From Weissella ceti (GTDB taxonomy: Bacteria; Bacillota; Bacilli; Lactobacillales; Lactobacillaceae), in assembly GCF_018394055.1 (NCBI RefSeq), contig NZ_CP074441.1, positions 1,240,001-1,304,000 of the forward strand: DNA of 64,000 nucleotides, in the 5' to 3' direction. This document shows, one piece after another, positions 1 through 2,626 of this stretch. The notes under the pieces are model-generated. The model was not told the DNA's origin and did not search any database. It saw only the letters and a program-made list of their open reading frames with translations. Position numbers and translations under genes: made by a program. Every line of letters begins with the position of its first letter. Positions within the stretch are counted from its first letter, which is position 1.

Positions 1-744
1 TATTCCTAATTTTTCTTTTACAAATTCAGCAACATTTTCTGTAATTCTTTTGCTGTCTAAAAATAACTCGCCATCAACTTGAATATTAAAGGGTTCAGTT
101 TCAAACTGTTTTTTGATGAAAAAGACATCACTTGAATAATCATTTTTATAGGGGGTTACTGTTGTCGATGTCGTTGTCACCAATGATTGATATACATCTC
201 CGACATAAACAATGTCCATTTTACTTTTTTGGATAAGTTCCCTCAAAAATGAAAAGTCATAATTTGTAAAGTCTTGAAATTCATCAACAATAATTACATC
301 AAAATATTTTCTTAGACGTTGTAACCCTTTTTCAAATACGAACTTATTGTCTAGTATTAATCTGCTTACTCGGTTCCCGTATATTTGTCCATTACTATTT
401 GTCCAAAAATCGATATTTTGCTTCTTCGCAAATCTTTTTTCACCAATTTCTTGTTCACTTACCCAACTTATTCCATTTGATAAATTAATATTCTCAGTAA
501 AACAACTATTAATGTCATTAATATAGGGTCTAATAAAATTGTTTATCAGCATCGAGTGATATGTTTGAATATAAACATTCTCACTCTTGTGTGATGAATC
601 CTGAACAAGAAAGGTAATATTCTTTATATTTTCATTTGTAAATGTTGTATATAAAATTCGCTTTCCAATAAATTCATTAGATTGTGTAACGTATCTCGTT
701 TTTCCAGCACCAGCTTTTGCTAATATTATTTTTTTAGTTGTCAT
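1..744 (-). CDS. gajB: UvrD/Rep-like helicase, GajB-type, 3' end outside window (partial)
   Basis: This is an open frame of 248 codons that starts at 744 and continues past the left edge. Translating the minus strand gives a superfamily 1 helicase N-terminus: Walker A GAGKT at residues 12-16, an Ia-like segment YTTFTN, Walker B DEFQD at 154-158 and motif III GDVYQ at 182-186. The ATG lies inside the last codons of the upstream nuclease gene, an 11-base overlap, so the two are translationally coupled. In Gabija systems an OLD nuclease (GajA) is followed by just such a UvrD-like helicase (GajB), which supports immunity against phage. The family is clear; the assignment to Gabija rather than another OLD/helicase pair is inference, because the C-terminal helicase motifs cannot be seen. 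The gene is AT-rich and uses AAA/ATT codons, unlike the core genes. Confidence 0.8.
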   Translation of the reverse strand, partial: MTTKKIILAKAGAGKTRYVTQSNEFIGKRILYTTFTNENIKNITFLVQDSSHKSENVYIQTYHSMLINNFIRPYINDINSCFTENINLSNGISWVSEQEIGEKRFAKKQNIDFWTNSNGQIYGNRVSRLILDNKFVFEKGLQRLRKYFDVIIVDEFQDFTNYDFSFLRELIQKSKMDIVYVGDVYQSLVTTTSTTVTPYKNDYSSDVFFIKKQFETEPFNIQVDGELFLDSKRITENVAEFVKEKLGI

Positions 745-2329
745 TCAATAACCAACTTAGTCCATTTTCAATATAACTAGGCATAACCAATGATCCATCT
801 GTAAATCTATCCACCATATCTAATGCTATTATCGTCTTATTATCTAGCATGTAATTCAATTCACTGTTTACAGTTCTAGTACTAAAAGGCGTCTTTTCAA
901 TTCTTTGTTTATTCCGCTCATATACGGCAGCTTCAAAAGTCCATTCAGTCTCCAAATCTTCACCTAGAAAAATCCTTACATCTTCATTTTTTTCATTGTT
1001 ATTCTTCGCCTGTTGTAATCGCTTCTCGTCTCGATCGTTATCTGTAAAAATAACTACCCGAGCATTTGTTATTCTTGCTAATTCATAAAAGGCATCGTAA
1101 TATCTCCCTTTATACGAAATCACTTCTACAGAATCAGCTAAAGCTGGATTAGCAATCTTTAATAAGGTTTCCATCACAATATATTCAGCCGTTCCCTCAA
1201 CTAACACAATATATTTTGCACTCAACAAATTCAGAAAATTCAAATTATCTAAGCGTTCAAAAAAACTTGTTGTTTTTTGAGTCAATTTAGAGAATGTTTG
1301 AATAGTTGGCTTATTATTTTTGATCCACAAAACGTTTTTAATCCCCATCCTGCTTATAATTTGAGGATTATGCGTGGTAACAATTAATTGTGATTCATTT
1401 ATATTTTTTTTGATATTTGTAATTTGTTGTTTAGTATTATTTGTAGATAAATGATTTTCTGGTTCTTCAATCAAAATCAATCGCGTATCTTCTGACTCTA
1501 ACGCGAGTTTCGTTTTTATAAGATTTTCTTGTCCACTACCTAAATGCCTTATAGATACTTGATTATTTACATTTATCACATCTAAAATTGACTCTAGACT
1601 GGTTGTATTTGGATTGATTTTTAATTCGTACTCCTCAATATTTTCAGAGTGTATTTGAGAAATTGATTGTCTGTACGAAGATTGCATTTTTTGTTTTTTT
1701 GAGTCAGTTAATCCATTGAATAATTGTTTTGCGAATATATTGAATGGATCGCCTATCCAATTACTGTTATCAATAGTTATTGTTTTTAATGGGTCTTGTC
1801 TCATTAAATATGCAACACCTGAAAATGTTCTCCAGGTTGCTTGATACAAGTCAAACGGTAACGTAAACACACCTAAATCCGATTGATTTAACGTCCATTC
1901 CATATATTGTTCTTTGAAATCTTCATTGAATTTATATTCAAAAATCACACCACTCGATCCCAGATTCCAATTTTTCATGGATTGTGGATAATTTTCTCCA
2001 TCAAAAACACTATTTTTAGGCACCTTTTCTAACTCAAATTCTATCACTAATTTAATTGATGGTAATTTTGTATAATCGTGTCTATTTTTTGTGTCGTTTT
2101 CAAACGACCTTACAAGATCAGCATTCAACAAATTAGCGTATGTATTGTCTGTTGACGAATTAATATTGTGGTATTTCCCTTTAAGTACAATAGAAATCGC
2201 TTGTAACACACTTGATTTCCCAGAGTCATTGTCTCCAATTAAGATAGAAATGTCCTTATTAAAATTAATTTCCGTATGTTCCTTATATTTCTTAAATCCC
2301 TCTAGATGTAGTTTAGAAATAGTATTCAT
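734..2329 (-). CDS. gajA: OLD-family ATP-dependent endonuclease (GajA-type, ABC ATPase + TOPRIM)
   Basis: The 531-residue protein begins with an ABC-type ATPase: Walker A GDNDSGKS at 32-39, a signature-like LGSGQ near 265, Walker B LILIEEPENHL near 285-295 and an H-loop TTHNPQ. A C-terminal TOPRIM domain follows from about residue 375, with VLVEGTAE (catalytic Glu) and FTDNDRD (metal-binding acidic cluster). This is the architecture of class 2 OLD nucleases, which sit beside UvrD-like helicases; Gabija GajA is a DNA nickase held in check by nucleotides and released during phage infection. GajA of Bacillus cereus is about 578 residues, so the length fits. The start has an SD-like GAGGG five bases upstream. 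Low GC and AAA-rich codons against a higher-GC AAG-rich neighbourhood suggest transfer. Activity against phage is inferred from family and context. Confidence 0.85.
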   Translation of the reverse strand: MNTISKLHLEGFKKYKEHTEINFNKDISILIGDNDSGKSSVLQAISIVLKGKYHNINSSTDNTYANLLNADLVRSFENDTKNRHDYTKLPSIKLVIEFELEKVPKNSVFDGENYPQSMKNWNLGSSGVIFEYKFNEDFKEQYMEWTLNQSDLGVFTLPFDLYQATWRTFSGVAYLMRQDPLKTITIDNSNWIGDPFNIFAKQLFNGLTDSKKQKMQSSYRQSISQIHSENIEEYELKINPNTTSLESILDVINVNNQVSIRHLGSGQENLIKTKLALESEDTRLILIEEPENHLSTNNTKQQITNIKKNINESQLIVTTHNPQIISRMGIKNVLWIKNNKPTIQTFSKLTQKTTSFFERLDNLNFLNLLSAKYIVLVEGTAEYIVMETLLKIANPALADSVEVISYKGRYYDAFYELARITNARVVIFTDNDRDEKRLQQAKNNNEKNEDVRIFLGEDLETEWTFEAAVYERNKQRIEKTPFSTRTVNSELNYMLDNKTIIALDMVDRFTDGSLVMPSYIENGLSWLLNDN

Positions 2330-2425: not shown

Positions 2426-2455
2426 AAAAAAAGCGACTAGCCTAAGCTAGTCGCT
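2426..2455 (-). terminator. Intrinsic terminator after tRNA-Lys
   Basis: A perfect 10-bp stem (AGCGACTAGC at 2432-2441 with its complement at 2446-2455) and a 4-base loop is followed on the minus strand by a T run (2426-2431). It ends tRNA-Lys transcription before the gajAB promoter. Confidence 0.85.
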
Positions 2456-2462
2456 CTAGTTA

Positions 2463-2535
2463 TGTCCCCTCAGGGGCTCGAACCCTGGACCCAAGGATTA
2501 AAAGTCCTCTGCTCTACCAACTGAGCTAAGGAGAC
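2463..2535 (-). tRNA. tRNA-Lys (anticodon TTT)
   Basis: A 73-nt cloverleaf is readable on the minus strand. The acceptor GTCTCCT pairs with AGGGGAC, the discriminator is A, the anticodon loop is CTTTTAA (anticodon TTT), and the T arm contains GGTTCGAGCC. CCA is not encoded. It lies between the AT-rich nuclease/helicase locus and prfB, a typical position for an integration site. Confidence 0.95.
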
Positions 2536-2626
2536 ATCGAAAGTTAATAAATAACTTACTTGATATATTATACAGTGTTTAAGGCAAAAATAAAGTGTTT
2601 TTCATTTTGAATATGCCATAAAAGAG

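Follow-up and report, generated by a model that had tools for sequence, protein, structure and literature searches.

Gabija systems combine an OLD-type ATPase–TOPRIM nuclease, GajA, with a UvrD-like protein, GajB. In the Bacillus cereus VD045 system (8SM3, 8JQB and 8U7I), a UvrD-like gene comes after the nuclease gene, adjoining or overlapping it. Nucleotides inhibit BcGajA, a nicking endonuclease; the E379A, D511A and K541A variants are dead, while H320A relaxes inhibition by ATP (PMC8136825). Residues E379, D432 and D434 are used by BcGajA, GajA tetramers carry GajB, and the GajA–GajB contact is needed for defence (PMC10781630). No helicase activity was seen for GajB (PMC10681800). One study reports that Gabija acts on DNA ends without RecBCD activity and that the defence protein Nhi responds to phage SSB (PMC12904381). 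A lactic acid bacterium Gabija, LsGajA/LsGajB of Ligilactobacillus salivarius Ren, likewise has overlapping or nearly overlapping genes and is a non-specific nuclease; it groups with B. cereus VD045 in an 18-homologue tree, and Weissella does not appear in the text of that study (PMC13304284). We found no description of a Weissella Gabija in the literature searched.

The window analyzed here is a 64,000-nucleotide stretch of the Weissella ceti chromosome (G000:C1:1240001-1304000); the whole genome, 1,505,791 bp in one contig, was also used. Two overlapping genes lie on the minus strand at its left end. The first, gajA (window 734–2329), is a complete, intact ORF encoding a 531-residue OLD-type ABC ATPase with a C-terminal TOPRIM nuclease domain. 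The second, gajB, starts at 744, an overlap of 11 nt, and the window holds its N-terminal 248 residues (1–744), belonging to a compact UvrD-like SF1 protein. The first-pass annotation had read this arrangement as a Gabija pair, and missed a third gene because the window ends inside gajB. When the left flank was recovered from the genome as part of a 15-kb locus examined for ORFs (L003), gajB proved to be 374 codons long (L003:9620-10744), extending past the window edge to G000:C1:1239620. It is followed, 13 nt downstream and on the same strand, by a 525-residue abiO/nhi-like gene that lies entirely outside the window (L003:8029-9606, equivalent to G000:C1:1238029-1239606). This gap and an AAGGAG ribosome-binding site before the GTG start of the third gene make it likely that gajB and the abiO/nhi-like gene share one transcript. 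A candidate operon promoter, found by consensus scan only, is on the minus strand at 2386–2413 (TTGAAA, 16-nt spacer, TATGAT), between the gajA start and the intrinsic terminator of a tRNA-Lys gene (2430–2457, minus strand; 12-bp stem followed by a T-run). The inserted cassette ends on its right side at this terminator, and the tRNA-Lys (TTT) gene itself (2462–2536, minus strand; ARAGORN) is the adjoining chromosomal landmark. On the other flank are an HD-domain gene (L003:7488-7997) and a shared terminator (L003:7985-8018). We consider it very likely, from gene content and sequence, that these genes form a horizontally acquired chromosomal anti-phage operon in which a compact Gabija pair is joined by an AbiO/Nhi-type gene acting as an independent second defence. 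The assignment to Gabija rests on full-length PADLOC matches, a GajA fold match and a conserved gene pair.

GajA is matched by the PADLOC GajA model PDLC00102 over residues 3–525 (E = 1.5e-74) and by the Pfam families AAA_15 and OLD-like_TOPRIM. The ATPase motifs are all recognizable, including Walker A (GDNDSGKS, K38), the ABC signature (LGSG, 263–266), Walker B (LILIEEPEN) and the H-loop residue H320. The TOPRIM domain carries the LVEGTAE and TDNDRD motifs noted at first reading, with E378, D430 and D432. These three residues and H320 align directly with E379, D432, D434 and H320 of BcGajA, and the catalytic residues tested, E378, D430 and D432 among them, are invariant in 74/74 homologues. 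E466 and K498 are probably further TOPRIM residues; a similar spacing (32 residues, compared with 30) suggests that they correspond to D511 and K541 of BcGajA.

The locus is a divergent family member, mostly 25–40% identical to its homologues, and GajA is only ~14% identical to BcGajA by structural alignment. In single-sequence searches of solved structures, retron, Septu PtuA and AriA proteins rank ahead of GajA, a sign of this distance. That ranking, together with a length close to Class 1 OLD (531 residues against 528 in the 6p74 chain), is what could be cited for a different OLD or ABC system, such as a solo Class 1 OLD, PARIS, Septu or a retron-associated OLD, that happens to lie beside an unrelated helicase. 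However, the PADLOC GajA and GajB models win by far, and the gene pair is kept in 78 of the 80 loci listed. A profile of eight relatives retrieved BcGajA (2.8e-16) and BcGajB (1.3e-15) among solved structures. An AlphaFold model of GajA (pLDDT 90, 74-sequence alignment) also matched Gabija GajA structures best, with BcGajA at the top (TM-score 0.58–0.63 by query length) and lower scores for the Class 1 Thermus OLD (0.49) and the Retron-Eco8 OLD (0.45). None of the ORFs in the surrounding 15 kb encodes a reverse transcriptase, an HNH protein or a DUF4435 (AriB) partner, and the retron reading, which the first-pass annotation had named as a way in which it could fail, is ruled out by the missing reverse transcriptase. 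The idea of another OLD or ABC system is thus largely refuted already, and we regard it as exceedingly improbable. The TM-scores are moderate and the rmsd is large, so the domain arrangement of the modeled GajA may differ from that of solved GajA structures.

GajB is matched over residues 3–352 of its 374 by the PADLOC GajB model PDLC00148 (E = 3.9e-41), which gives the full-length helicase hit that had been proposed as a check, and by the Pfam family UvrD-helicase. SF1 motifs I, II, III, IV, V and VI are all present, among them AGAGKT, DEFQD (154–158), VGDVYQ, motif V (SKGSTFENV) and motif VI (YVALTRSK); loss of the last two had been the other anticipated ground for rejecting a Gabija helicase. 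In the family alignment, K15, Q186, R233, K301, R342 and the DEFQD residues are invariant or nearly so.

The pair differs from the B. cereus VD045 system in more than its very low identity. The interval between the motif IV Arg and the motif V Lys of GajB is 67 residues in W. ceti and 63–77 in all 63 compact GajBs examined, compared with 201 in BcGajB (R232 to K434, 8jqb chain numbering, counted from the printed alignment). In BcGajB the Cacc/2B subdomain occupies residues 314–416 (PMC10681800), and it has no counterpart in any of the 63 GajBs. The four-subdomain plan of BcGajB (1A, 1B, 2A and 2B) is not present in W. ceti GajB; since 2B is a trait of the characterized example and not part of the PADLOC definition, Gabija membership is retained. 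The compact proteins keep a region of 1B size (70–106 residues separate T61 from D154); in BcGajB, 1B is the part that touches GajA (PMC10781630). A model of another family member's GajB, that of L074, showed a compact two-RecA fold (pLDDT 90.5) with a Gabija AB complex chain as its top match, and many general SF1 helicases followed at comparable E-values.

GajA is also reduced. It is ~41–43 residues shorter than BcGajA, both in total length and from DxD to Lys, and ~43 residues are missing between DxD and the presumed next catalytic acid; the region past DxD is unaligned, and equivalence there is by spacing. Class 2 OLD nucleases are described as sharing a helical TOPRIM insert of ~50 residues (PMC10568477), and the shortening suggests that GajA lacks it.

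A new subtype had been proposed for this locus. The part of that proposal that stands is that the compact lineage differs structurally from the Bacillus system. The PADLOC-DB models of compact size, PDLC00102 and PDLC00098 (532 and 534 positions) for GajA and PDLC00148 and PDLC00140 (369 and 365) for GajB, agree with the Weissella proteins in size and match them over their full length with no difference found, and they match all 74 GajA and 63 GajB homologues. PADLOC therefore already models the compact lineage, and this is no new subtype for detection tools. We found no paper in the open-access literature describing the structural difference between compact and canonical forms. The structural reduction is of interest and open to experiment, but it is not unique to this genome.

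A scan of genome contigs with a single sequence gave no locus matches, while a search with an alignment query recovered at least 80 genomic loci in Bacillota, Pseudomonadota, Bacteroidota and other groups. In 78 of the 80 listed, gajB directly follows gajA, usually with an overlap of ~15 nt; the two exceptions are fragments on short contigs. Relatives were found on 1,702 plasmid records. The closest gajA relative, from Weissella fangxianensis (L004/L072), is 48% identical, lies at a contig end and contains an in-frame TGA. Matches to gajA in five other Bacilli (G720, G548, G736, G605 and G791) have a single in-frame TAA, either an interruption or a gene end that was read through. Two Leuconostoc-type genomes (L016:10078-11832, minus strand; L079:5750-7159, plus strand) carry a reverse transcriptase ~0.7 kb upstream of a compact gajA–gajB pair. 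These reverse transcriptases have a TOPRIM-like C-terminal part, are retron-type by inspection and are probably neighboring defences.

The composition of the cassette is foreign to its surroundings. Window bases 1–2300 have 30% GC, the lowest of any stretch in the window (mean 41%, SD 2.3% for 2.3-kb pieces), and the cassette overall has 30.9%. AAA accounts for 57 of the 75 Lys codons of gajA and gajB, compared with 0–2 AAA codons in each of six housekeeping genes of the flanks, bearing out the contrast with neighboring genes that was drawn from the window; the HD gene, with AAA in 5 of 8 Lys codons, is an exception among the flanks. AAA, ATA and AGR codons are common in all three cassette genes and hardly occur in the housekeeping flanks, and the third gene resembles gajA and gajB in GC content and codon use. 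The nearest Weissella relative (G055) is collinear at 83–86% DNA identity but has ~100 bp at this spot, where W. ceti has 4.4 kb; similarity resumes at L003:12427, which is window position 2427. Because a 4.4-kb segment with 31% GC and foreign codons is missing from the nearest relative, the cassette is best described, on comparative sequence grounds, as a recent horizontal acquisition in one chromosomal insertion. Other genomes hold different contents at this spot, a 9.4-kb cluster that includes several surface-protein-like genes in G161 and a glycerophosphodiester-phosphodiesterase-like (GDPD-like) gene in G319 and G329, so that the interval between the HD gene and tRNA-Lys is a variable chromosomal spot in Weissella.

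Vehicles for the insertion were also considered. A tRNA-mediated or integrase-borne island is unsupported despite the adjoining tRNA-Lys gene, since no direct repeat of the tRNA-Lys 3′ end or other flanking repeat was found at the other edge of the cassette and no integrase lies near the locus, the nearest being ~0.27 Mb away. A prophage origin is likewise unsupported, because relatives in 50,697 phage records are few and all below 60% identity (gajA in two Listeria phage contigs only, the third gene in four records). Plasmids yielded no near DNA match of the locus.

Foreign codon use also bears on whether the cassette works in its host. An island that is decayed or silent, its genes intact by chance soon after transfer and unexpressed or non-functional, would fit a codon usage very foreign to the host, and the in-frame stops in the W. 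fangxianensis and several Bacilli homologues point the same way. In W. ceti, however, all three ORFs are intact and keep their catalytic residues, with a plausible promoter, ribosome-binding sites and flanking terminators, and we consider a silent island very unlikely.

The third gene matches the PADLOC models for AbiO (7.2e-85, residues 12–514) and Nhi (4.4e-83, residues 16–515) over ~95% of its length, with scores too close to choose between the two, and the Pfam family SLFN-g3_helicase (6.6e-13). Its helicase motifs GSGKT and DEAQ are kept. E41, D79 and K94 are invariant, and D92, two residues before K94, is D or E elsewhere; from this pattern we infer that the protein carries a PD-(D/E)XK-like nuclease. 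Elsewhere this family stands without Gabija, whereas here it comes third in an operon with gajA and gajB.

One possible reading is that the three genes make up a single integrated system, in which, for example, DNA processing by a helicase, a role lost from compact GajB, falls to AbiO/Nhi. The missing 2B subdomain of GajB is compatible with such a division of labor, as are the shared strand, the 13-nt gap, the separate ribosome-binding site, the similar GC content and codon use, and the single insertion. Co-occurrence argues otherwise. AbiO/Nhi is absent beside all 80 compact Gabija loci listed, and Gabija is absent beside all 11 other Lactobacillaceae AbiO/Nhi genes, where one weak ABC-ATPase hit was a transporter-like ORF. 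Among 398 Lactobacillaceae genomes, gajA occurs in 10 and abiO/nhi in 12, and only this genome has both. Among 399 Bacilli, 12 have gajA and 13 have abiO/nhi; two have both, adjacent in this genome and 76 kb apart in the other. These counts rule out the third gene as an obligate component, and an integrated three-component system is quite unlikely. A related proposal would make compact Gabija a distinct subtype, with a minimal GajA lacking the Class 2 insert and a GajB that serves solely as a sensing switch, a 1A–1B–2A core that is no processive helicase and senses DNA ends or NTPs; here AbiO/Nhi would have been recruited as a third subunit restoring DNA processing. Taken as a whole, we judge this combination quite unlikely. 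Because AbiO/Nhi adjoins Gabija in no other genome examined, the AbiO/Nhi-type gene is most likely a stacked, independent second defence and not a component of the system.

A mechanism for an operon of compact Gabija with a separate AbiO/Nhi defence can be sketched, in which the steps past gene content and motifs are drawn from characterized relatives. GajA would oligomerize via its ATPase domain, with bound nucleotides holding the TOPRIM nuclease off. GajB would act as an SF1 NTPase docked on GajA and responding to phage DNA ends or replication. Formation of a GajA–GajB complex by this compact pair is assumed; at the interface known from the characterized system (GajA R97 and GajB V147–Q150), the sequences are too divergent for residue-by-residue alignment. 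Phage infection would expose ends or drain nucleotides, and GajA would then nick or degrade DNA. Independently of this, phage replication intermediates would be the target of AbiO/Nhi, through the PD-(D/E)XK nuclease and SF1 helicase predicted for it.

The locus adds one more Gabija, now with its exact insertion documented in Weissella. With the stacked AbiO/Nhi gene, two DNA-targeting defences occur together naturally, apparently under one promoter, and the triggers published for them differ: DNA ends or RecBCD status for Gabija and phage SSB for Nhi. For the family, GajB unwinding and GajA activation are debated in published work, and a GajB without 2B occurs naturally in many phyla, so that the role of the 2B subdomain is directly testable.
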